Assembly: GCA_023662825.1 (NCBI GenBank)
Contig: JAMPIH010000003.1
Location: 62,001 to 126,000 of the forward strand
Length of the DNA: 64,000 nucleotides
Direction of reading: 5' to 3'
Origin: Bacteroides sp.
GTDB taxonomy: Bacteria; Bacteroidota; Bacteroidia; Bacteroidales; P3
Shown: positions 46,129-58,396 of the stretch, piece by piece
Layout of the letters: the number at the start of each line of letters is the position of its first letter
How positions within the stretch are numbered: position 1 is the stretch's first letter
Program-made: the position numbers and the translations under genes
The notes under the pieces: generated by a model
Told to the model about the DNA's origin: nothing
What the model saw: the letters and a program-made list of their open reading frames with translations, nothing else
The model's database searches: none

Positions 46129-47163
46129 ATGACGCGAGAAATGGAAATTCTTCAATTCCTGCACTACAACCCACTCGCTTCCCGAGTTGAGATCGGCAAT
46201 GCCATAGCGAAGGATTCAAGCCCGGCAACATTGAAAAGGTTGATTGCCGGAGCCGTCAACGAGGGATTTATTGAAGTGGTGGGGAGTGGTCCGGCCACCC
46301 GCTACCGTCTTACACCGCAGGCTTATGTAACAATGGACCTGAACCTTGACACTTATTTCGACAGGGACATTGACGAGCGACAGATACAGGCGTCTTTCAA
46401 CTTCGGGTTGATAAATGAAATTCTTCCGAAAGTAAAACTTTTTACACCCGATGAGCTTGCCAAACTCAACGAAGCGCAGAAGTTGTTCCGGGAACATCTT
46501 GCCGATATGTCGGAAGTGGAATACCGGAAGGAAATGGAACGCCTCGGAATCGACCTTTCATGGAAGTCCTCGCAGATAGAAGGCAACACCTACTCGCTGC
46601 TTGAAACCGAACGACTGCTGAGAGAGAAACAGACCGCAAGCGGCAAGACTAAAGAAGATGCCTTGATGCTGTTGAATCATAAGGACGCTCTCGATTTTAT
46701 CCTCGATAAACCCGATTACCTGAAGGATTTATCTGTCGCCCGGATAGAAGAAATTCATTCGTTGCTTACAAAAGATCTGGGCGTCGGTCGTGGCATACGC
46801 CGCCGACGTGTAGGCATTACCGGTACCAACTACACACCCCTCGACAACGAGTTCCAGATTCGAGAGGCCATCGAAGATTCCGTCAGACTCATCAACGGCA
46901 AAGAAAACGTATTCGAAAAGGCGTTGCTTGTCCTCGTCCTGCTCAGTTATATCCAGGCGTTTACCGACGGCAACAAACGCACTGCCAGAATTGTCAGCAA
47001 CGGCATACTGATTGCCCACGGATATTGCCCCATCTCATTCCGCACCGTCGATTCCGTCGATTACAAGAAAGCCATGCTGATGTTCTACGAACAGAGCAAC
47101 ATCACGGCATTCAAGAAGATCTTCATCGAACAATTCCTCTTCGCCGTTAAAACTTATTTCTAA
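46129..47163 (+). CDS. Fic-family protein with N-terminal winged helix, altered catalytic motif
   Basis: A 344-residue protein. Residues 1-65 form a winged-helix-like DNA-binding domain (IGNAIAKDSSPATLKRLIAG, then a wing ending TRYRLTPQAY). The Fic domain has an inhibitory-helix motif of class II type, S147-S-Q-I-E151-G (SxxxEG). The Fic active-site loop reads QAFTDGNKRTAR, where HPFx(D/E)GNGRxxR is usual: the catalytic His is Gln276, Pro is Ala, and GNGR is GNKR. Canonical AMP transfer is therefore doubtful. The gene follows a nested palindromic operator, which the winged helix probably binds. The protein may act mainly as a regulator, or use altered chemistry. Neighbours are unrelated, suggesting recent acquisition. 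Confidence 0.85.
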   Translation: MTREMEILQFLHYNPLASRVEIGNAIAKDSSPATLKRLIAGAVNEGFIEVVGSGPATRYRLTPQAYVTMDLNLDTYFDRDIDERQIQASFNFGLINEILPKVKLFTPDELAKLNEAQKLFREHLADMSEVEYRKEMERLGIDLSWKSSQIEGNTYSLLETERLLREKQTASGKTKEDALMLLNHKDALDFILDKPDYLKDLSVARIEEIHSLLTKDLGVGRGIRRRRVGITGTNYTPLDNEFQIREAIEDSVRLINGKENVFEKALLVLVLLSYIQAFTDGNKRTARIVSNGILIAHGYCPISFRTVDSVDYKKAMLMFYEQSNITAFKKIFIEQFLFAVKTYF

Positions 47164-47212: not shown

Positions 47213-48763
47213 TCACAACCGGATAATCTTGGCGGACTTGTCGGCATAGTCGGGCATGCTTTCCCCCACCCCGGCGCCTATGTAGGTGGGGTCGCAGCAA
47301 AAGTACTTTCCGTCATTGAGTTCAAAATAGGAACCCGACACCTCATCGTTAAAGCGAATGGCCGTGGAAAGGTGGTCGTCGTATTCCACCAGCACCGATT
47401 CAAGCCCCAAGAGGTCGGCGGAGAGGATGGAAAGCAAGATGGCACGATCCTCGCAATCGTTATAGGGGTAAAAGAAGGTTTCATCGCCAAAAAGCGGCCT
47501 TTCATAACCGAATTGCTCGCCGTCGGTCTTGTATTGAAAGCCGTGTTGAATAAAATCCAAAAGGAAATTCACCGCCTCCACCTCACCCTTTCCGTTGATT
47601 TCCCTGCGCAAGAGCGGATAGAGGGCGCGCTTGACCTCCCGGCTGAGCGAAGCATGCACATAGTAATTCCACAGGTTGGTCCGGGGCAAGGAATTATAAT
47701 AGCGAATCAGGTTCCTGTTGGGCTTTACCTTGGCCGAAAACGTTCGCCCGTCCTTGTCTTGAATCTTTATCTCGCGGTACGGGGCACCCTCGTAAGCCAA
47801 GGCCGGAACCGAGGAAAGCTTCGACGAAAACAACCTGGTTCCCTCTTTGGGCATATCCACCACATAACACTGCGAGTTCTCGTTATCCTTCAGTATATAA
47901 TGCCGCAGACCGTCGATGGTGACGAAACTATAGCCGTAAACGGTTTCCTGAACCCCCACCATAAGCGACAGCCGATTGCCCATACGGCACATCTTTACCC
48001 GATAGCCGTCGTACACCAGCATCATAAACGTAAACAGGGTGGATTTGTTGTCACTGCCGTAATAGGCATCCCCCATCGCGCTCAACAAGCCCACATAGCC
48101 CCAATCGCCCAAACGCATGGCTTTCTTGAGTGCCTTACAGTCATCCGAAAGCGCCTTTACATCGGCCATCGACAACTTTTTCCACGCATCCGCACAGCAA
48201 TTCTCATCCACCCCGTTCAGCGTAAAGGCAAAATCCCTTCCCATGTGAACCCTACAGGGAGAGCCGAGATAGGTGAACTGAAAGGCCGAAGGGTGTCCGC
48301 TTTCCACCATCAAGGTGGCGGGAGCCGGTTCGGGTTCCGGCAAAGGTTCGGAATCATCTTCCAGAAAATCCTCCAAGTCGGAGAAATAATCATCGGGAAT
48401 ATCTTCATCCAGATTACCTCCCGCCCTGCGGTTCAAGGCCGACACGGTTCCCATCACTTCGGCCACCGGCATCAGCCGGTTTTCCGTGGCCACGCCCGAA
48501 GGCCTTACCGGCTGTTGACGTGGTTCGGGACGCAGGCGCATGCTCATCTTGGCACTTACCATAAATTCTTCCCACTGCCTGCGCATGCTTTCCTCATAGG
48601 CCCTGAACATTTCCTGCTGCTGTTGCCTGTAGGTGTCGAACGCCTGTGTCTGTTGATTGCGGTAGGCCTCAAACTGCCGTTGATAGTCTGCACGGATATC
48701 CTGTGCAAAGGCCGCACGGCAAAAGAAGCCCACCATAACGCCCGCCAAAAATATCTTTTTCAT
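47213..48763 (-). CDS. Secreted transglutaminase-like protein with coiled-coil N-terminus
   Basis: A 516-residue protein starting at 48763 (MKKIFLAGVMVGFF; signal peptide ending AAFAQ). A Gln/Glu/Arg-rich coiled-coil segment (about 25-75), an acidic-proline linker (LPEPEPAPA) and a middle domain follow. The C-terminus looks like a papain-like transglutaminase core: Cys437 (YNDCEDRA), His464 (YDDHLSTAI) and Asp491 (CCDPTYIG) are spaced as in that superfamily. The reaction could be cross-linking or proteolysis of envelope peptides; this is inferred. It is the last gene of the leftward nine-gene unit, 14 bases after the AsmA-like gene. Confidence 0.75.
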   Translation of the reverse strand: MKKIFLAGVMVGFFCRAAFAQDIRADYQRQFEAYRNQQTQAFDTYRQQQQEMFRAYEESMRRQWEEFMVSAKMSMRLRPEPRQQPVRPSGVATENRLMPVAEVMGTVSALNRRAGGNLDEDIPDDYFSDLEDFLEDDSEPLPEPEPAPATLMVESGHPSAFQFTYLGSPCRVHMGRDFAFTLNGVDENCCADAWKKLSMADVKALSDDCKALKKAMRLGDWGYVGLLSAMGDAYYGSDNKSTLFTFMMLVYDGYRVKMCRMGNRLSLMVGVQETVYGYSFVTIDGLRHYILKDNENSQCYVVDMPKEGTRLFSSKLSSVPALAYEGAPYREIKIQDKDGRTFSAKVKPNRNLIRYYNSLPRTNLWNYYVHASLSREVKRALYPLLRREINGKGEVEAVNFLLDFIQHGFQYKTDGEQFGYERPLFGDETFFYPYNDCEDRAILLSILSADLLGLESVLVEYDDHLSTAIRFNDEVSGSYFELNDGKYFCCDPTYIGAGVGESMPDYADKSAKIIRL

Positions 48764-48777
48764 AATCGGTCTGTATT

Positions 48778-51700
48778 TTATCGTATGGTATCCATTAAAC
48801 AATCTTTCTCCGCCTCATTCAGGCTGTCTATCGTAATCTCCACCTTGGGAAAGCTGACCGCAGGCAGACGGCGGCGCTCGCGGTTCATCCACCCCTCGAA
48901 CTGCAGCATAATCTGTCTACCCAAGGCCAAGCGTGCCTCGTCTATCCGCCTTACAAAGGCGGGCGTGGCCGCATCCTTATACAGCGGATGCCCGAATTTC
49001 GGCCAAGGCAGTTTGGAATCGTTGAAGTTGCCGTGCATCGTGATGCCGCCCCTCGTCAAGCCCTTCAGCACCGGGGCATCGAGCAGGGAAACATGATAGC
49101 GGTAGTTCATCTCCATATCCTGCCATCCGCCCACGGCCGCCTTGTATCTGTCGATTTCCAGCACAAAGGGATAGACCGTCATCTTGCCGTCCTGCACCGC
49201 AATCACCGCCGAAACACTGTCGATCAGATTGCGCTTCCTGTTCTTGAACATCAGCATTTTGGCCATGCGGGCAAAGGCCTCGCCGTCGAGCAACACCAAC
49301 GAATCGCCGTGCAGGTGCAAGGCCGCCGTAAGCGAGGGGAGCCGGATATTTACATTCGAATCCAACTGCGCCGAAGCGGTGGCCTGCAGATCCACCCGGC
49401 CTTCGAACGAACGCAGCATGGGCAGCGTGGTGTCCAAGGCCGAAAAGCCACGCAGCAACGAATCCACACGAATGCCGTTGAGCGATATATCGGCACCTAT
49501 GTCGGCCTGTTGACGGCTTCGGCCGGCATACACCAAATTCATCGACATATCGGCACCCCAGGCCTGCATAGAGAATTCCCGCAGGTTAACGGCCTTGTTG
49601 CGAACCTGGATCGTGCCGTGTATGCTGTCGAAAGCCGTACGGTCGTAATACACTTTCTGCGCATCGACCGCCAGACGCAGATCCAGGTTACCGGGCACCC
49701 TTAAAAGAGCTGATTTTTGCAGGCTGTCCGCCTGATAGGCAACGCCCATATCCTCATTCCCCCGCATATCGACCAGACAGGCACCCGCCTTTTCTTCGAG
49801 TTGCGCCGTATCGACCGGCCGGTTCAAGATATTGAGCAACTGATTGCAGTCTATCATGCGCGACTCCACACGCAGATCGGCCTTGATGAAACCCTGCCGG
49901 TGAATGATGGCCGGAACATCCCATACCTTTCCCCTTACGGCCAGACGCGATTCTCCCAAACGGAAACGCGCCTGGTCGATTTCCAGATCCCTGCCATCCA
50001 ACGTTCCACCGAAACGTTGGATCTGAAGCGGTTCCGACAGTTGCGGCAGCGTAACCGCCACCCGCTGCAGATTGGCCTCGACCACAGGCCACCACGAAGA
50101 AGGGGCAAGACGGGTTAAACGGGTCCTGAGGGTCGCCCGCAGGATACGGGTCCTACAATCCGCCCTCCGCACAAATAACGAATCGGTTTTAAAATCTATG
50201 GTTACAAGCGGGTCGCGGGCATTCTCCCGGGCAGGCACCACCTTTCCCTTAAGCACGGACGCCACACTGAAAACCTGCAGGCTATCACCGATGGCGGCAA
50301 ACAGACGGCCATATCTGAGCGCACAGGCCATAGGAACAATGGCATTTTCGTTTCGTCCGGCCATCGTTTGACTTATCGCCTTCACCTCCAACGAATCCAC
50401 CCTGACGTTGACGCCCGGCAGTTTACCGTGCAGTTTATTCAGCAAAACCACCCCGCCCAGATATTTACCGCCCTTAAAACGGCACTGTGCATCCGTATTC
50501 CAATAGACGCCCGAAAGCGTATCGTTAAAAAAGACCTCCTCCATATCGAACCTGCCGCGCGCCTGAGCCTTTCCGTAGTTTGCGTTCCGGATATACGAGA
50601 GGCTAAACCGCCCGTCCATATCGGCCACCATCACGCCCCCCATCGCCAAGCCGCCCCGCAGCGGAAAGATTTCGGGAAGCACGGCCAGATCCACATCGGC
50701 GCTAAGCTTAAAAGCCACCGACGGGTCGGCAAACAGTTCGTCTACCCTGCACTCCGCAATCACCTCCATATCTTTTGCCACTGCGCCCAATTCCTCGATA
50801 TCCACGTAGGAAAGCATCTTTTTACCGGGCGCAAGGTGGGCGTTAAGCCGGACACGAAGCGTATCGACGGGATACGGCATGCCCGAATAGTGCAGATGGC
50901 CGTTCTCGAGGCTCAAGCGCAAATCGGCCTCCGGCATTTCTCCGCCCCCGTAGCAACCGTATATACGTCCGTGCATGTCTATCTGCCCGTCGGCCTGCAC
51001 GCCCTGCACTTTCAGGTATTTCTGCGGCAGCATGTCCAGCACTTCCTGCAGGGAAGCCGTCTGCAAGTCCACCTTCAGGTCCATTCCTATCCCGCCCGCC
51101 GTGTCCATTTCGAAACCGCCCTGCACCCCGACTTCCAACCGCTTTGCCTGCAAACGGGACTCCCATAAAGTACCTTTCCGCTCCCTGTAGTTGTAAGATG
51201 CCTGAACGCTTCCCTTCAGCGGAATGCCCTTTACCATTTTCTGACCGACCTGCGTAAAGTCGATGTCCGCAATCTCGAAGTTGACCGATGCCCGTAAGTC
51301 CGCGGTGTCGCCCGCCCCCTCGCCCGCCAAGGCCAGTTTCCTTATCCGCGCTTCGGTTCCAGTGCATTGATCCCGAAAATGCACGTTTACATGGTCGATT
51401 CTAAACCGATTCACCTCTATGTCGGGAAGTTGCAGCGCGGAAACGTTGCTGGAAAATGTATCTTGCGTGGGGAAAATATGATAGTTGGAAACCCCGTCCG
51501 CACGGGTAAAGAGACGGCAATCCGCACTGTCCAGTTCTATGGCAAAAAATGAGAGTTTTTTATGGCGGACATAGGTTTTGAAGTTGAGCCCGACCCAACA
51601 GCGATGAAAGGCGAAAAGCGTGTCTTCGGGTGCGGAGGCCGTATCGCGGAAGGAGTGCGAAACCACTGAGCCGTCTTTCAACGCAAGCCCCATATGGGGA

Positions 51701-51909
51701 AAAGAGGAGAAAAAGGTAAGATCGACTTCGCGAACCTGCACCTCGGCACAGAGGCTTTGCGTGGCAATCCGGTTAACCAGCGGCGTAAGACGTTTAGGAG
51801 AAAGAACCACGGCAACCGCAATCCCCACAACCAACAAAACCACCGCCAGCAAACCGCCCAGGCTTATCAAGGCGATTCTTGCGATTCGGGCTGCGGGGGA
51901 TTGGGTCAT
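48778..51909 (-). CDS. AsmA-like envelope protein
   Basis: A 1043-residue protein with one N-terminal membrane anchor (about 9-38, IALISLGGLLAVVLLVVGIA). A long β-rich periplasmic region follows, carrying the AsmA signature at the start (FFSSFPHMGLALKDGSV) and the C-terminal stretch VSLLDAPVLKGLTRGGITMHG. AsmA-like proteins form periplasmic bridges for lipid movement or affect outer-membrane assembly. The start at 51909 is chosen because it opens the membrane anchor 10 bases after the upstream stop; an in-frame start at 51954 is possible. It belongs to the leftward unit that begins near 57850. Confidence 0.8.
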   Translation of the reverse strand: MTQSPAARIARIALISLGGLLAVVLLVVGIAVAVVLSPKRLTPLVNRIATQSLCAEVQVREVDLTFFSSFPHMGLALKDGSVVSHSFRDTASAPEDTLFAFHRCWVGLNFKTYVRHKKLSFFAIELDSADCRLFTRADGVSNYHIFPTQDTFSSNVSALQLPDIEVNRFRIDHVNVHFRDQCTGTEARIRKLALAGEGAGDTADLRASVNFEIADIDFTQVGQKMVKGIPLKGSVQASYNYRERKGTLWESRLQAKRLEVGVQGGFEMDTAGGIGMDLKVDLQTASLQEVLDMLPQKYLKVQGVQADGQIDMHGRIYGCYGGGEMPEADLRLSLENGHLHYSGMPYPVDTLRVRLNAHLAPGKKMLSYVDIEELGAVAKDMEVIAECRVDELFADPSVAFKLSADVDLAVLPEIFPLRGGLAMGGVMVADMDGRFSLSYIRNANYGKAQARGRFDMEEVFFNDTLSGVYWNTDAQCRFKGGKYLGGVVLLNKLHGKLPGVNVRVDSLEVKAISQTMAGRNENAIVPMACALRYGRLFAAIGDSLQVFSVASVLKGKVVPARENARDPLVTIDFKTDSLFVRRADCRTRILRATLRTRLTRLAPSSWWPVVEANLQRVAVTLPQLSEPLQIQRFGGTLDGRDLEIDQARFRLGESRLAVRGKVWDVPAIIHRQGFIKADLRVESRMIDCNQLLNILNRPVDTAQLEEKAGACLVDMRGNEDMGVAYQADSLQKSALLRVPGNLDLRLAVDAQKVYYDRTAFDSIHGTIQVRNKAVNLREFSMQAWGADMSMNLVYAGRSRQQADIGADISLNGIRVDSLLRGFSALDTTLPMLRSFEGRVDLQATASAQLDSNVNIRLPSLTAALHLHGDSLVLLDGEAFARMAKMLMFKNRKRNLIDSVSAVIAVQDGKMTVYPFVLEIDRYKAAVGGWQDMEMNYRYHVSLLDAPVLKGLTRGGITMHGNFNDSKLPWPKFGHPLYKDAATPAFVRRIDEARLALGRQIMLQFEGWMNRERRRLPAVSFPKVEITIDSLNEAEKDCLMDTIR

Positions 51910-51919
51910 TTTGCGTCTT

Positions 51920-52750
51920 TCATTTTGGGGGCGAAGATCTTCGTTGAAATACATATCCTGGCATAAAAGAACCAACCACTCCTCTATTTGCTGCCCAAAT
52001 TATTGAAAAATTTACAAATTCCTTTCCATCAAAGAGCAAGCCAGAAATATTGTAATTATAGTAAAATCCCCAATCAGTCGGAACAGTAGTTGTATATACG
52101 TACAAATCCGTATATATAGGCAGCGGAAGAACTTTCTGACTTTGAGTATATGCATCTATAATTTTTTCGACTTCATCTCTATGAGCGTAGTCAATGTTTT
52201 CGTTTATCACCAGCAATTGATCTGCCGTATGAATAGGACTACTATAATAGTTTTCAAGACGAATCTTTGTACCCGAAATGTTTCCAAACAAATCCTTCAC
52301 CAAGGCTTTGCAACTTATGTCCATTTCCGTTGGAACTATCCCGGCAATCGTTGCCGCTGTAAAGGTTTCGAAGGTCTCCACGTCAACCAACGAGGCCGAC
52401 AAGGTTATATTCTTCGCGTCATAGTAGGCCACTTCCATCCGCAACACGTATGCGGCACCCGTGGCCGCCCCTAACCTCTTTACGGATTCATCGCTCGCCA
52501 GGCCAGAGCGCTGAAATTCATGCTCGCTCATGATATCCCTAAAGTCTCTCGTAAAGGCCGAATAGCCAGGCATCGCGCTAATGGCGGCCGACAATCTACC
52601 CCTCAACAATAGCTTGACCCCCGAAGCAACCTTGTTGTTGTCCATATCTATCGGCTCCGTAATCGCCACCTTCTTGATGTTTTCCTGGGCAAATGCCTTA
52701 ACAGAGAAAACGAAAAATAGAGACAGGACTAAACGAATAATAGCTTTCAT
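51920..52750 (-). CDS. CsgG/FlgO-like paralogue A
   Basis: A 276-residue secreted protein; signal peptide about 1-22 (ending VKAFAQ). Residues 24-160 form the shared domain of the paralogue family: KKVAITEPID, GVKLLLRGRLSAAI, EHEFQRSGLAS, TGAAYVLRMEVA and LVDVETFE. The C-terminal 110 residues are distinct, aromatic-rich and end in RRSSPPK. The shared domain resembles the CsgG/LpoB/FlgO α/β fold of outer-membrane-associated periplasmic proteins; this fold call is by pattern only. It is 11 bases after paralogue B and 10 before the AsmA-like start. Confidence 0.7.
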   Translation of the reverse strand: MKAIIRLVLSLFFVFSVKAFAQENIKKVAITEPIDMDNNKVASGVKLLLRGRLSAAISAMPGYSAFTRDFRDIMSEHEFQRSGLASDESVKRLGAATGAAYVLRMEVAYYDAKNITLSASLVDVETFETFTAATIAGIVPTEMDISCKALVKDLFGNISGTKIRLENYYSSPIHTADQLLVINENIDYAHRDEVEKIIDAYTQSQKVLPLPIYTDLYVYTTTVPTDWGFYYNYNISGLLFDGKEFVNFSIIWAANRGVVGSFMPGYVFQRRSSPPK

Positions 52751-52761
52751 ATCTATTTATT

Positions 52762-53727
52762 TTACTGTGTTTGAATGACGCAATAGCGAGAAATGCTCCA
52801 AAACTTTTCCTTATCCAAAATCACTATACGGGTATTGTTAGAATTGCTTAAATCCCACTTATAACTGCCCGCCGGATGAGGAGTCTTGAGGTACATATTC
52901 TTCGAATTACGATGTTTTGTCTCAAATACATCAAAATACCTATAGTCCGCTTTTGTGTACCTTGACCGTGGTAAATTTCTCCAGTTTTCTAATCCATCCT
53001 TGGTTCCAAAGAGAAAATATACTTCATATAATGATTCATTCAACATTCTCTCCATCACGGCATACGCATCTTTCAGCGCACTCAATTCCTGCTGCAAACT
53101 TTCAATTCTGGCTTCATCTTCTGCCAATGATTTTTTGAGCCTTGCAATGTCGTTGTTCCTTTGGTTTACAATCTCTACCAAACGTTCGTTTTCCACCCTG
53201 AAATACGATATAGTGTTCTCATATTCAGCAACAATAGGGCTACCGGCATTCTCTAATAACTTTTGTGCCAAACTATTACATGCTTTGGCCATTTCAGAAG
53301 CCTCAATCCCTGCAGTCACCCCATCTGTTTTCACAATCCCCGCCGTTACTACATCGAGAATATCCGCAGTCAATATCACATTCCGGGCATCATATTTGGC
53401 TACTTCTATTTTCAATACATAAGACACCCCGGTCATTTTACCTATCTGCTTGATTTCGGCATCCTGCACCATACCCGTTCTCTGAAACTGTTGTTCTTTA
53501 ATAATGCCCGCAATATCCCTTGTGTACGCCTCAAATCCCGGGGTATTGGTAATGGCCTTTGCCAGACTTGTTCTCAGCAAGAGTTTTACGCCTTCGTTAA
53601 TCTCGCCTTTCCTGTCTATCGGCTCCAGAATCGCCACTTTCTTAACGTTCTCCTGTGCATAGGCAGGAATATGGCACGCCGTTGCCGCGATTAACAATAA
53701 TAGAATACAGATGTATTGCCGTTTCAT
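52762..53727 (-). CDS. CsgG/FlgO-like paralogue B with coiled coil
   Basis: A 321-residue protein. The signal peptide ends AYAQ; an earlier Cys (ATAC) could make it a lipoprotein. The shared domain (about 28-165) carries KKVAILEPIDRKGE, LLRTSLAKAITNTPG, QQFQRTGMVQ and MTGVSYVLKIEVAKYD. A coiled coil follows (about 180-240, IVNQRNNDIARLKKSLAEDE), then a ~75-residue C-terminal domain of unknown type. Base composition looks clearly richer in A+T than the flanking housekeeping genes, suggesting different evolutionary pressure or transfer. The gene is 25 bases after paralogue C. Confidence 0.7.
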   Translation of the reverse strand: MKRQYICILLLLIAATACHIPAYAQENVKKVAILEPIDRKGEINEGVKLLLRTSLAKAITNTPGFEAYTRDIAGIIKEQQFQRTGMVQDAEIKQIGKMTGVSYVLKIEVAKYDARNVILTADILDVVTAGIVKTDGVTAGIEASEMAKACNSLAQKLLENAGSPIVAEYENTISYFRVENERLVEIVNQRNNDIARLKKSLAEDEARIESLQQELSALKDAYAVMERMLNESLYEVYFLFGTKDGLENWRNLPRSRYTKADYRYFDVFETKHRNSKNMYLKTPHPAGSYKWDLSNSNNTRIVILDKEKFWSISRYCVIQTQ

Positions 53728-53752
53728 TGTGTTCTTCTAATAATATGAGGCT

Positions 53753-55036
53753 CTATGGAATCATAACCACGCGGAAGCCAACATTATTATACCTGCCGTC
53801 TGACGTACCGTTGCTACGATACGACACCCGACAGGACTGCGCACTGCCGCACCAACTACCACCACGACTCACGCGTTCAGAGCCCGACGTAGACCCTGTA
53901 GGATTGACTAGTTGGAAACATTCATAACTGTCCGTATACCAATCCATGCACCATTCTTCTACATTCCCGCTCATATCATAAAGCCCTAGGCCGTTGGGGC
54001 GTTTACTCCCCACCACATGTGTACTGCGATTGCCGTTCCCGTCATACCACGCCACCGCATCTATTGAAAGGCCACCGCTATACTTAGTGCCATCATTCCG
54101 GTTACCGCCACGCGCCGCGTATTCCCACTGCGCCTCGGTGGGCAGGGTGTATTTCCTGCCCGTCTGCCGACTCAGTTCCTCGCAGAAAGCCATAGCTTCA
54201 TCCCAATTCACGTCATACATCGGATAGTCGCCCCCAACACCGGCCAATCTATAATTCCCCTCTTTATCCCGCTGCTGTTCCACCGAGGTTCCCATCACCT
54301 TCTGCCACTGCGCCTGCGTTACCTCCATCATCCCGATGTAATAACCCGTTAGCATCACAGAGCAGGTATTCTTTTCGTCATCATCGCAATCGCCTCCTTG
54401 CTCATCTGTACAGCCCATGATAAACGAGCCGCCTTCCACCCACACCATTTTCATGTTCAGACCCCAGGAGTTCTCCACGTAGTCTTGACCGTCAGTTAAA
54501 GGCATCCTACTTGCAGACGACGATATATTTCCGCTTGTTGAAGTTCCGGAAACATTAAATAACTTTTTGGCCAATTCTCGGCAACCTTCCGCCATCTGTT
54601 CGGGATTCGATGTGCAAAGTTGGTCGCTGGAATGTTCCACATATGCCGTTTCTACCGACATCAGTTTGGCCAAAATATAGATATTATTTCCCGATTGAGC
54701 GACTTCGGACACTAAAACATAGGCAACACCCTTTATCTCCCCCATTTTTTGTTTCTGTTCATCGGACACATGCCCTGTCCGTTGAAATGCTTGTTCTTCA
54801 AAAATGGCGTCGATATCGGTGCGGTCGTAAGCCTCGAATCCTGATATACTGGTAACTGCATTGGTAAGCTTTCCCTTCACCATAACCTTTAAGAGGTAGT
54901 TCACATTTCCCTGCCGATCTATCGGCATCAACACCGCCACCTTCTTTATGTTGTTTTGCGCCTGCCCGAAGCCTAATGTAAAAAGGGTATTGCCTGCGAG
55001 AAAGAAAAAGGTCAGCAGGCGTGCAATCTTTCTCAT
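53753..55036 (-). CDS. CsgG/FlgO-like paralogue C fused to FGE/SUMF1 lectin-like domain
   Basis: A 427-residue protein. Signal peptide about 1-26 (TLGFGQAQ), shared domain about 28-165 (KKVAVLMPIDRQGN, EEQAFQRTGHVS, KGVAYVLVSEVAQ), and a linker. A formylglycine-generating-enzyme-type domain fills about 200-427: WVEGGSFIMGC, MMEVTQAQWQKVMG, LPTEAQWEYAARGG, MSGNVEEWCMDWY and RVSRGGSW. FGE folds are C-type-lectin-like and serve as enzyme or binding scaffold. One Cys aligns with the catalytic Cys341 of true FGE, but the partner Cys is displaced by one, so formylglycine formation is unlikely. The last ~35 codons show DGR-like variability and are listed separately. It lies 2 bases after paralogue D. 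Confidence 0.82.
   Translation of the reverse strand: MRKIARLLTFFFLAGNTLFTLGFGQAQNNIKKVAVLMPIDRQGNVNYLLKVMVKGKLTNAVTSISGFEAYDRTDIDAIFEEQAFQRTGHVSDEQKQKMGEIKGVAYVLVSEVAQSGNNIYILAKLMSVETAYVEHSSDQLCTSNPEQMAEGCRELAKKLFNVSGTSTSGNISSSASRMPLTDGQDYVENSWGLNMKMVWVEGGSFIMGCTDEQGGDCDDDEKNTCSVMLTGYYIGMMEVTQAQWQKVMGTSVEQQRDKEGNYRLAGVGGDYPMYDVNWDEAMAFCEELSRQTGRKYTLPTEAQWEYAARGGNRNDGTKYSGGLSIDAVAWYDGNGNRSTHVVGSKRPNGLGLYDMSGNVEEWCMDWYTDSYECFQLVNPTGSTSGSERVSRGGSWCGSAQSCRVSYRSNGTSDGRYNNVGFRVVMIP
53771..53863 (-). other. Candidate diversity-generating variable region (VR)
   Basis: From GGSW to GFR of paralogue C. The slots that are Asn in the usual pattern NNNAQN…NN…DNRNNNNGFR here encode C-G-S, S, S-N-G, G and Y-N-N-V. 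All these codons end in C or T (TGC, GGC, AGT, TCC, AGC, AAC, GGT, GGC, TAT, AAT, AAT, GTT). This is what adenine-specific mutagenesis of AAC/AAT codons yields. Other codons in the stretch are conserved family residues. No template repeat or reverse transcriptase was seen in the window. Confidence 0.45.
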
Positions 55037-55038
55037 TT

Positions 55039-55629
55039 CTATAGGGTTTTCATTTCAACCACCGTATCTCGCTTTACCTGAGATTGCACTTGGAGTTCAA
55101 CCTTCACCGGGGTCTCCGCTGCGGCAGATTCCGTAGCGGGTTTCTCTGCCGGTTCCTGCTGCTTTTTCAAGTTTTCCAAGAGTTGTTTGGCATTTTCCTC
55201 GCAGGTCCGCATCAAATCGCTTGCCTGACGAACCTTAACGATACTTTCGGCACTCACGGCGGGGGTTTCACCCTGCACGTCCAACATTCTGGAAGAAATC
55301 ACCAACTCGCCCATGGCTTCCGTAAGTTCGGCCACCACCACGTAGTCCACTCCGAACCCACGCCCTATTTCCCTAAGCCGCGATTCGTTTACCGGAGCAT
55401 TCACCTTATAATCATGGTCCTTGGCCAATTCAGCAATAAAGGAAACGGTTTTTTCCGTGGCCGAAAACTCCGGATTGGCGGATATGCCCGACACGATTTT
55501 CTGACCGGCTATCTTCTTGTTGCCCGCATTGACTTCACCCGTTACATACACGGCCACTTTCTTAGGCGCTTGTGCCATGACCACACCCGCACACAAAAGC
55601 CACAGCAGGAATAAACTTATCTTTTTCAT
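55039..55629 (-). CDS. CsgG/FlgO-like paralogue D, diverged
   Basis: A 196-residue protein; signal peptide about 1-19 (GVVMAQ). The shared fold is visible but diverged: KKVAVYVTGEVNAG, SGISANPEFSATEK, REIGRGFGVDYVVVAELTE, SSRMLDVQG. The FQR(S/T)G motif found in A, B, C and E is absent. A Glu/Ala/Pro-rich tail (about 155-196) looks disordered. It sits 2 bases upstream of paralogue C and 18 bases after E. The role is unknown; the gene is retained in the same tightly packed unit. Confidence 0.7.
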   Translation of the reverse strand: MKKISLFLLWLLCAGVVMAQAPKKVAVYVTGEVNAGNKKIAGQKIVSGISANPEFSATEKTVSFIAELAKDHDYKVNAPVNESRLREIGRGFGVDYVVVAELTEAMGELVISSRMLDVQGETPAVSAESIVKVRQASDLMRTCEENAKQLLENLKKQQEPAEKPATESAAAETPVKVELQVQSQVKRDTVVEMKTL

Positions 55630-55647
55630 TGATTCCTCACGTTTTTT

Positions 55648-56148
55648 TTACAGGTTATACAAAAGTTTCCGAGCCACGCTTTTACAGGAACCCGCATAAT
55701 CTGCCGCATCGTTCTTGGCGTTCAGGGTTCCCGAATTGGCAATCCTTCCCGTTTCCACATCAATAATCTGAGAGATATACGATATGTTGTAGTCGTCCAG
55801 CTTAACCATTTCCAAAATAACAACATACTGGGCTCCCGTCATCTTGCCGTATTCCTTCACCTGGTCTGGATCAACCATACCGGAGCGTTGAAAATCATGC
55901 TCAAGCGCAACCGATGAAACATCTTCGCGGGTAAAGCCTTCGTAGCCCGGCGTCCGGGTAATTTCGTCGGTAAGAAAGCCCCGAACCATACGCTTCACAC
56001 CCCTTGGGAACTCGTTATCTACGTCGATAATTCCCAGAACGGCCACCTGTATCTTTTCCGAAGGCGCGTAGTATTCCTGGGCCACGCTCCCTGCGTGCAG
56101 GCACAAAAAGCCCACAAACGCCATCAAGAACAATGCTCGTCTTTTCAT
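55648..56148 (-). CDS. CsgG/FlgO-like paralogue E, minimal form
   Basis: A 166-residue protein consisting almost only of a signal peptide (about 1-23, GSVAQ) and the shared domain: VAVLGIIDVDNE, VRGFLTDEITRTPGYEGFTREDV, HDFQRSGMVDPDQ, MTGAQYVVILEMVKLDDYNI and IIDVETGR. It defines the minimal unit of the family, with no C-terminal extension. It is 6 bases after the LPP20-like/helical gene F and 18 before D. Confidence 0.72.
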   Translation of the reverse strand: MKRRALFLMAFVGFLCLHAGSVAQEYYAPSEKIQVAVLGIIDVDNEFPRGVKRMVRGFLTDEITRTPGYEGFTREDVSSVALEHDFQRSGMVDPDQVKEYGKMTGAQYVVILEMVKLDDYNISYISQIIDVETGRIANSGTLNAKNDAADYAGSCKSVARKLLYNL

Positions 56149-56154
56149 TCCACG

Positions 56155-57198
56155 CTATTCTTTAAGGGTTGTCGATATCACCTGTCCCGCCTTCTTGCTG
56201 ATGTCCTTATAGGCGGTTCTGCCGGCCTCGGTATAGTTGTGGGTGTGCCCCCCCTTTACCGACACTTGGTCTTCGTAGATGCGTTGCGCACGGCCCTGCA
56301 CCTGCTTGTCGATGGTAAGCAAGGCATCCACATAGGCAAAGTAGGAAACCACGTTGCCCGTGGGCACCATATTGTATTCGCGGGCAGAACACTCCATGCC
56401 GATAACCCAATCGGCCTCTTCCGGATTTTCGGTAAACGTGCATCCCTCTTTGGCCAAAACCCCTTTCAATTCGTTTTTCAAGGTAAAGTAAGGCGAACCA
56501 AAAAGGTCGGCGGTGGCGGTGAGGTAGATTTTGGTTCCGTATTTCATATCGGCCACCATGTTCTTCAACTTGTTTTCGCGGCTGGCGCAGCGGTTGGACA
56601 GATCGGCCTGTTCTTCCTGCGTCATACCGAAAAAATTAAGCCAAAAGAAGAGTTCCGGAAGTTCCTCGAACAAAGGCAGCGCCGCATTGGCTTCTTCGGC
56701 CGCCTTCGACTTAAATCCCTTGTTTACATAATCGGAGCAGATTTCAACCGCTTTTTGCGCCTGATTGATGATTTGCTCCACCTTGTTGCCGTAGTAGCGT
56801 TTGGCATCAGCCTTGTTGATATAGGCAATCGCCCAACCTTCCTTGGTGGCGGGGTTGTACTTGGTCTTAAAATCGACAAGTTCAAGGTTCACGTCGGTGG
56901 AAAAGGTAGAGGTGGAACGATAGTAAATGTTCGTACGCCCGTTCTCCGCGCTTTTGTCCATCGAAGAACGGGTGCTTACCTGTACCTGCACTTTCTCGGC
57001 CAACTTACTTTGGGCGATACGCAACAGGTAATCCTTAAAAGCCGTTTCGGTGCCGTTATAATCCCGCAGATTATCATTTTGGATGTCGTAGATATACCCA
57101 CTGTAGGTATATTGAACCCATTCGGGCGGGCAGTTTTGCGACTGTGCAAAACCCACCCACCCCGCTAAAAGCAGTACAAGGGTTATTAGTTTTTTCAT
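56155..57198 (-). CDS. LPP20-like envelope protein with extra domains
   Basis: A 347-residue protein starting at 57198 (MKKLITLVLLLAGWVGFAQ, signal peptide). The first part (about 50-150; LLRIAQSKLAEKVQVQVSTRSS… and KEGWAIAYINKADAKRYY) resembles the LPP20/FlgP-type domain. A helical segment (about 150-215) follows, then a β-rich C-terminal domain that contains EADWVIGMECSAREYN and QVQGRAQRIYEDQVSVKGG, as in lipoproteins of LPP20/LpoB type. There is no lipobox. It is 7 bases after the first gene of the unit. Confidence 0.65.
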   Translation of the reverse strand: MKKLITLVLLLAGWVGFAQSQNCPPEWVQYTYSGYIYDIQNDNLRDYNGTETAFKDYLLRIAQSKLAEKVQVQVSTRSSMDKSAENGRTNIYYRSTSTFSTDVNLELVDFKTKYNPATKEGWAIAYINKADAKRYYGNKVEQIINQAQKAVEICSDYVNKGFKSKAAEEANAALPLFEELPELFFWLNFFGMTQEEQADLSNRCASRENKLKNMVADMKYGTKIYLTATADLFGSPYFTLKNELKGVLAKEGCTFTENPEEADWVIGMECSAREYNMVPTGNVVSYFAYVDALLTIDKQVQGRAQRIYEDQVSVKGGHTHNYTEAGRTAYKDISKKAGQVISTTLKE

Positions 57199-57205
57199 GT
57201 TGGTT

Positions 57206-57850
57206 TTATTCGCCTTTGGCGGCATTGATAATCGAAGCGTTGGTTTCTTCGAAGGCTTTCAAATCTTCACCCGTAAGTGTGGTTGGTTTCTGTCCAGCCG
57301 TATTGAGCATCTTTTTATAGAGGTCGCCCCGTATGCCCACCTTGGCCCGTACGTTATACATGCCTGTTTTCTTGTCGTATTCAACTAAAGCGTTTCCCAA
57401 AGGTTCACACCCGTTCTGTACACTCATGCTCACTTGATTCCAATACGACTTGAGGGCCTGCTGCACCTGACCGTTATTAGCCATTGCCCCACGTTCGCTC
57501 TCGGTTTGCACCATATTGAGAATGGAACGCGACACTTCGGCACGGGCTTCGGAAAGAGCCATCTCAATGGCCATACTCTTGTTGTCGGCCTTGGCCGTAC
57601 CGGCAAACCACTTGTAGGCAACCTTAACCAACTTGGTACCTTCTTCGTTAAGGGATTCCACCATTTCGAAACCGGTAAGGGCGTTTTCTTCAACCGCCAC
57701 TCTGCTCCCCTCCAAGGACTTTACTTTACCACGATTCATTTCTTTTTTTACAGCCCTTTTCTGCGCCATAACGGGATTGATTGTCGAAAACGAAAGCACC
57801 AAAAGGCCGCAAAGAGCCAAAGAAAAGATCTTTTTCATTGTCTTGAACAT
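57206..57850 (-). CDS. LPP20-like secreted protein, first gene of the envelope unit
   Basis: A 214-residue protein with signal peptide (ending NPVMAQ). The LPP20/FlgP-like core lies at about 80-190: SMAIEMALSEARAEVSRSIL, then MYNVRAKVGIRGDLYKKML. The start at 57850 (MFKTMKK) is used; 57838 (MKKIFSLALC) is equally possible. It begins about 60 bases after a perfect -7 box and heads the leftward unit. FlgP and FlgO are partners in the Vibrio outer-membrane flagellar ring, but no flagellar gene is present here, so the pairing may serve another envelope assembly. Confidence 0.7.
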   Translation of the reverse strand: MFKTMKKIFSLALCGLLVLSFSTINPVMAQKRAVKKEMNRGKVKSLEGSRVAVEENALTGFEMVESLNEEGTKLVKVAYKWFAGTAKADNKSMAIEMALSEARAEVSRSILNMVQTESERGAMANNGQVQQALKSYWNQVSMSVQNGCEPLGNALVEYDKKTGMYNVRAKVGIRGDLYKKMLNTAGQKPTTLTGEDLKAFEETNASIINAAKGE

Positions 57851-57912
57851 TTATCGTTTATGTAATTTATTTTGCGAGGATGGCCTCTCAAAGCCCTCCT
57901 ATCCGCAGTTTG

Positions 57913-57920
57913 CAAAGTTA
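57913..57920 (-). promoter_or_regulatory. -7 box of the LPP20/CsgG-like unit
   Basis: The minus strand reads TAACTTTG, a perfect TAnnTTTG, 62 bases before the start at 57850. It lies about 40 bases from the divergent box of the XRE regulator. Confidence 0.55.
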
Positions 57921-57957
57921 GCGCAGGTCGATAGCCCGTTATGTACACAACTTTTGT

Positions 57958-57965
57958 TACATTTG
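57958..57965 (+). promoter_or_regulatory. -7 box of the XRE regulator
   Basis: TACATTTG, a perfect TAnnTTTG, 38 bases before the ATG at 58004. No clear -33 TTG. Confidence 0.5.
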
Positions 57966-58003
57966 TCCATATTTTTATGGGTATCTACCCGAATATTTAC
58001 AAG

Positions 58004-58396
58004 ATGGAAGACTTGAAAAAGACGATTGGGCACAGACTCCAGATGCTCCGCCTGGAACGCAACCTCACGCAGGAACAGATGGGGGAAAAGCTCAATCTGT
58101 CAACCAGCGCGTATTGCAAAATCGAGTACGGGGAAACGGATCTTACGCTTACCCGCCTGAACAAGATTGCCGAAGTGCTGAATATGTCGGAAATGGATTT
58201 GTTCAGCCGTATCGAGGGACAGGCCTGCATTAACGAGCCTCACGACTGCGACTGCGTGTGGATAGCCAAAGACAGCAGTACCGTAACCGTAGAAAGCGCC
58301 AAAGACCTGCGCGAATTAGTGCGCACCCAGACTCTCTTGCTTGAAAGTCTCTCCAAAAGGCTCGACGCCATCGAAAAAAAGATCTCTAAAAAATAA
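58004..58396 (+). CDS. XRE-family transcriptional regulator
   Basis: A 130-residue protein starting at 58004. Residues 6-62 form a Cro/CI-type helix-turn-helix (LRLERNLTQEQMGEKLNLSTSAYCKIEYGETDLTLTRLNKIAE, split here as a continuous HTH_3). A short C-terminal coiled coil (about 100-128, LRELVRTQTLLLESLSKRLD) may dimerise it. The longer frame from 57941 overlaps the promoter and is not used. It is divergent from the LPP20/CsgG-like unit with 153 bases between starts, so it is a candidate regulator of that unit and of itself. Confidence 0.88.
   Translation: MEDLKKTIGHRLQMLRLERNLTQEQMGEKLNLSTSAYCKIEYGETDLTLTRLNKIAEVLNMSEMDLFSRIEGQACINEPHDCDCVWIAKDSSTVTVESAKDLRELVRTQTLLLESLSKRLDAIEKKISKK

Follow-up and report, generated by a model that had tools for sequence, protein, structure and literature searches.

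A gene set encoding two LPP20-type proteins (LPP1 and LPP2) and one or more CsgG-superfamily proteins is conserved across Bacteroidales and is new as far as open-licence papers show. The gene combination was found undescribed in that literature, in line with an earlier sequence-only reading that knew of no described system with this content; a description published behind a subscription may have escaped the search. The set was recognized in a 64,000-nucleotide stretch of a Bacteroides sp. contig (hereafter, the window), and we hold with about even confidence that the locus encodes an outer membrane (OM)-anchored periplasmic scaffold, probably ring-forming, that carries exchangeable C-terminal tails. 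More tentatively, a non-flagellar OM ring of mixed CsgG-fold proteins may act throughout Bacteroidales as an undescribed modular binding platform, combined with LPP20 discs and finished by a transglutaminase-like protein. The sequence-only reading was partly supported, being right on the protein families and wrong on the limits of the unit and on a fixed five-part cage.

Layout and limits of the locus

Positions 47213–57850 of the window hold nine genes, all on the minus strand and spaced by 2–25 bases once likely starts are applied, as originally placed together with an outward-facing XRE gene. LPP1 (57206..57850) encodes a 214-residue LPP20-type (SHS2-like) secreted protein without a lipobox, and LPP2 (56155..57198) encodes an LPP20-type N-domain followed by a helical middle and an LptE/GNA1162-like C-domain. 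The LPP2 ORF is open from 57225, and a start at the conserved Met10 (57198) removes the overlap with LPP1. Five genes for CsgG-superfamily proteins come next: A (55648..56148), B (55039..55629), C (53753..55036), D (52762..53727), and E (51920..52750). An AsmA/DUF748-like gene (48778..51909, likely start 51909) and TG (47213..48763, likely start 48763), which encodes a secreted transglutaminase-like protein, complete the stretch. The XRE/HTH_3 regulator gene (57941..58396, plus strand, likely start 58004; Pfam HTH_3 4e-12) diverges from LPP1. On the minus strand, 63 bases ahead of LPP1, TAACTTTG (57913..57920) fits the Bacteroidota −7 promoter consensus TAnnTTTG, with no further match on this strand from 48754 to 57912. 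Its placement is consistent with a single predicted transcript from LPP1 through TG, although weakly, because the consensus is no more frequent than in shuffles.

The nine genes had been regarded as one unit headed by the XRE gene, a description that comparison with other genomes contradicts. A genome of the same genus (HAN049) has, in window order, a large ORF matching the window's 60588–63689 gene, TilS, flavodoxin, AsmA, and TG, without the XRE gene and without the seven genes LPP1 to E; a search of this genome returned no CsgG-family member. The AsmA-TG pair without the module is seen in L049/L214. Since AsmA-TG occurs without the seven upstream genes, which have lower GC (0.42–0.51 vs 0.53–0.56 for AsmA and TG), the nine-gene stretch is composite. 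By the HAN049 order and the GC contrast, the seven-gene module was gained or lost en bloc beside a resident AsmA-TG pair. AsmA adjoins TG in close relatives only, being restricted to the genus, and was rejected as a conserved part. HTH genes lie close to 5 of 89 module heads elsewhere, as judged with a seed-limited HTH profile from four seeds, and inclusion of the XRE gene was likewise not supported. A gene for a Fic-domain protein (46129–47163), convergent with TG in the window, is missing at the matching HAN049 position. Elsewhere in the window, the region 21379–43924 holds genes for several large proteins that are T9SS substrates (Por_Secre_tail) and in which CARDB, Cleaved_Adhesin, Omp28, and subtilase domains occur.

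The AsmA-like and transglutaminase-like identities were upheld by weak Pfam matches, namely DUF748 (7.5e-6) and AsmA (5e-4) for the former and Transglut_core (0.0097) for relatives of the latter. Judging from its sequence, TG keeps a transglutaminase-like Cys-His-Asp triad (C450, H477, and D504, invariant in six relatives) and is a predicted enzyme. TG relatives are widespread: genome contigs, among them those of Bacteroides fragilis and Alistipes, gave 477 candidate stretches, of which the best 80 were read. At 78 loci, LPP20-type genes were found upstream of TG, with 55 hits at positions −1 to −8 and three at +1 to +8. Throughout Bacteroidales, many operons that begin with an LPP20-type gene close with the TG-like gene, and in many of these the middle genes encode CarboxypepD_reg/BACON, DUF5683, PEGA, or caspase-type secreted proteins rather than CsgG-like ones. 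The caspase-type (Peptidase_C14) proteins were observed near such operons at seven loci (L074 4664–5566 and relatives).

LPP20-type and CsgG-superfamily proteins

Window LPP1 and LPP2 by themselves fall below the threshold of Pfam LPP20 (PF02169). Their relatives, in whose alignments the two proteins have their place, match it (4.9e-6 for the LPP2 family and 0.0028 for the LPP1 family), and hhalign aligned the LPP1 family with the LPP2 N-domain (92%, 7e-7), bearing out the initial call of two LPP20-like proteins. The AlphaFold2 model of LPP2 has a pLDDT of 84.5 and a pTM of 0.58, a value that makes the domain placement uncertain. Foldseek matched this model to Cj1090c (9e-7) and HP1454 (1.3e-5), and also to LptE, TraT, and CsgG. 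HP1454 shares one operon with Helicobacter pylori Lpp20 and is an interactor of FlgP (PMC11756786). The LPP2 N-domain is built as strand-helix-strand-strand, with a low-confidence stretch of 25 residues (92–117) that separates the helix from the second strand. In FlgP and FlgT, an insert at this point of the SHS2 fold goes with ring formation (PMC12222027); the LPP2 stretch occupies the same position, where the model gives no clear hairpin shape. A sequence relationship of the LPP2 C-domain to A was considered and dropped, as hhalign found none. Lipobox-like signals are present in 40 of 86 LPP1 relatives, 2 of 47 LPP2 relatives, and 1 of 61 CsgG-like proteins. Because LPP1 relatives are often lipoproteins and the other two groups almost never are, these signals suggest that LPP1 is a membrane anchor and that LPP2 and the CsgG-like proteins are periplasmic.

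A CsgG-like profile HMM seeded from other genomes only, with window sequences left out, matched D (1e-47), C (6e-46), E (1e-38), A (1e-38), and, most weakly, B (3e-28), while shuffled copies scored E ≥ 1. The proposal of five tandem paralogues with one common N-domain is thereby confirmed, B included. The four motifs attributed to all five (VAVxxPID, FQR(S/T)G, TGxxYVxxxEV, and DVET) are present in A, C, D, and E; none occurs in strict form in B. A tree of 61 domains groups these same four proteins within a single supported clade (21 rows) and places B in a separate deep lineage, although the exact places of A and B are unsure because of long branches. Mixed oligomers drawn from the two deep lineages may form.

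The AlphaFold2 model of A (pLDDT 87) displays the PelC/FlgT/LpoB/TolB-N/CsgG fold. Foldseek placed PelC (2.7e-7) and FlgT (3w1e, 4.5e-7) nearest, followed by GNA1162 (7e-7), TolB (9e-6), LpoB (4e-5), and CsgG (1.3e-4), and the model also matches an LPHT ring chain by fold (8z5n). The membrane hairpins of CsgG were not found in this model, whose 140-residue domain has short strands only. By profile match and by the α/β core seen in the fold model of A, the five proteins belong to the CsgG superfamily.

Recurrence of the module and exchange of tails

Of the 121 genomes that represent the GTDB family in the sample, 16 contain relatives of A; with 105 lacking a match, the module is not essential. 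At all 15 informative loci in the family, the CsgG-like genes are adjoined by LPP2-type and usually LPP1-type genes; the module order is reversed at one locus (L044), and another is interrupted by a contig end (L033). An LPP2-based search of other families gave a CsgG-like neighbor at 9 of 12 full-length matches, the remaining three (L140–L142) having none, and a longer LPP2 relative of about 500 residues mostly occurs without CsgG-like genes nearby. In the phylum sample, only distant partial matches were obtained outside the order. Co-occurrence of LPP20-type and CsgG-like genes in Bacteroidales, for which the sequence-only reading had recommended a search, was thus established.

The window's own genome (G000) holds a second locus (L045, contig C19, 3232–5515) with a lipoprotein LPP1, LPP2, and a short-tailed CsgG-like gene; this lipidated LPP1 might substitute for window LPP1, which lacks a lipobox. 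A third related locus (L215, contig C3, 2265–11749) combines LPP20-type genes with a second TG and with genes for several small lipoproteins that are secreted, and two short HTH genes lie close to its head. In a bacterium labeled UBP6 (UBA1196), TG, CsgG-like, 564-residue LPP20-like, and CsgG-like genes stand in a row (L068, 8307–15643).

The five window paralogues differ in their C-terminal parts, as first noted. A has no tail; B ends in about 38 low-complexity residues; C carries an FGE-sulfatase (C-lectin-type) tail (Pfam 1.2e-46); D continues into a coiled coil and a C-terminus matching the NCBIfam Cbp1 collagen-binding family (5e-15, below the model's own cut-off); and the 116-residue aromatic-rich tail of E is 17% F/W/Y and matched no known relatives. 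Across loci, the common domain bears FGE tails in 19 proteins and MORN tails in six (the MORN cluster was scanned in part), as well as Lcl_C, LamG_3, TonB_C, DUF5683-like, barrel-like, Cbp1-like, or no tails, with the DUF5683-like and barrel-like labels assigned by eye from sequence. These tail classes are mutually unrelated. Because so many types share one domain, the N-domain is the constant part and the tail the variable part. With one to seven CsgG-like copies per locus and tails exchanged between genomes, the envisaged fixed hetero-oligomeric cage with five specialized faces is not supported, and the tree and copy numbers rule out a fixed set of five orthologous subunits.

Action of a diversity-generating retroelement on the FGE tail of C was ruled out, since no reverse transcriptase (PF00078) match exists in the genome; elsewhere in the genome, the C-terminus of C is resembled only in part, by stretches of other FGE-type genes. 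C is unlikely to be a catalytic formylglycine-generating enzyme. Its last motif is RGGSWCGSAQSC, with a cysteine spacing that we take to be unlike the catalytic pair of that enzyme. At locus L043 (8991–10078), an FGE-tailed CsgG-like gene appears split over two overlapping frames, perhaps by a frameshift or an assembly error.

A candidate periplasmic scaffold and its alternatives

In the proposed scaffold, a ring or disc would be formed or capped by LPP2 and by LPP1, which in most of the family is the one component with a lipid anchor; FlgP and FlgT play such a part in the motors of flagella. Proteins of the CsgG/PelC fold would assemble on this LPP20-type ring through their shared N-domain, leaving the C-terminal modules (FGE, LamG, Lcl_C, MORN, coiled coil with a Cbp1-like end, or none) to bind sugars, lipids, or partner proteins, and trimming, crosslinking, or maturation of the assembly may fall to the secreted TG-like protein. 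The one to seven subunits per genome would arise by tandem duplication with swapping of tails, so that subunit composition can differ between strains. The analysis shows the domains, the predicted folds of A and LPP2, the conserved operon, the exchange of tails, a model of A free of hairpins, and a genome free of FlgI; we infer ring formation, anchoring, ligand binding, and TG activity. The scaffold is favored because A is nearer to PelC (a dodecameric ring), FlgT (H ring), and GNA1162 than to CsgG and has strands too short for membrane hairpins, and because LPP2 matches HP1454 and has its helix-to-strand-2 stretch where FlgP and FlgT carry an insert. The conserved neighborhood, the unrelated tails on one domain, the LPP20 genes upstream of TG, the lipobox skew toward LPP1, and the absence of FlgI point the same way. 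Against it count the missing lipobox of window LPP1, the many family genomes without A, the weak Pfam match of TG, and the fact that the closest solved relative by sequence, LpoB (0.0034), is familiar as a regulator rather than a ring former.

Several characterized systems resemble the locus in part. The Vibrio H ring (FlgO, FlgP, and FlgT) also combines a CsgG-superfamily protein with LPP20/SHS2-type proteins, but the locus has no flagellum, possesses tandem paralogues with exchangeable tails and a TG-like gene, and encodes proteins mostly unlipidated apart from LPP1 relatives. The occurrence of these H-ring-like families without flagella, pointed out earlier, is corroborated by the absence of FlgI from the window organism's genome (97.9% complete). 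PelC, of which twelve copies form a periplasmic ring on PelB within an exopolysaccharide exporter (PMC12141448), is the best fold match of A, equal in size and devoid of membrane strands; it differs as a lipoprotein encoded in a polysaccharide operon with PelB, and neither PelB nor Pel synthesis genes were recognized in the neighborhoods examined. The H. pylori Lpp20 (HP1456)/HP1454 operon likewise pairs a small LPP20-type protein with a secreted one that has several domains, the first of them LPP20-like, but no CsgG-fold array or TG-like gene is reported for it (PMC11756786). A role in anti-phage defense was considered and gave no convincing match.

The main rival, which stays among the principal alternatives to a ring scaffold although we judge it unlikely, is that the CsgG-fold proteins are lone LpoB- or TolB-like periplasmic regulators whose tails sense or dock on envelope machines. 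LpoB is not only the best PDB match by sequence but also the Pfam family matched by 23 of 42 family members (CsgG, 21; FlgO, three, weakly), and LpoB, the TolB N-domain, and GNA1162 share the fold of A. However, these are single-copy lipoproteins or periplasmic regulators without tail diversity, the ring formers PelC and FlgT match the fold better, LpoB is a lipoprotein whereas the CsgG-like proteins here are not, and LPP20-type genes, relatives of disc formers, nearly always adjoin.

We give a similarly low probability to a surface-displayed adhesin array, in which outward-facing tails would attach to matrix and to glycans of host or food origin and would be exchanged under niche or immune pressure. 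The recurrence of lectin-like folds (FGE, LamG, and Lcl_C) and a Cbp1-like end as tails agrees with it, as does the variation in copy number and tails between related genomes; Cbp1 of B. fragilis binds collagen (PMC3949742). Yet none of A–E has a T9SS sorting tail, a lipobox is almost always missing from the CsgG-like proteins, a reverse transcriptase for diversification is lacking, and GldK/PorK, a T9SS ring protein of the periplasm, has an FGE-type fold too. The window organism's genome encodes a true GldK. A CsgG-like channel exporting amyloid or polymer is very improbable: the Pfam match (CsgG, 8.8e-7 for A; 0.0037 for C), the core fold, and the place of PelC in a polysaccharide exporter speak for it, but CsgG proper has two membrane-spanning β-hairpins per subunit, a lipid anchor, and curli genes, which the locus lacks, and no curli-like substrate or recurrent β-barrel partner was recognized in the neighborhoods. 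A curli-like pore was rejected on the hairpin-free model of A.

Most of what is known of ring-forming LPP20 and CsgG/PelC-type proteins concerns their accessory roles in flagella, curli, and the export of polysaccharides. Their joint occurrence in a conserved operon of a flagellum-free genome, with free exchange of tails, suggests an envelope structure not described before. Its carriers are gut and rumen Bacteroidales, dominant among animal-associated bacteria, and the link between LPP20-headed operons and a TG-like protein of B. fragilis and hundreds of genomes offers a handle on function.
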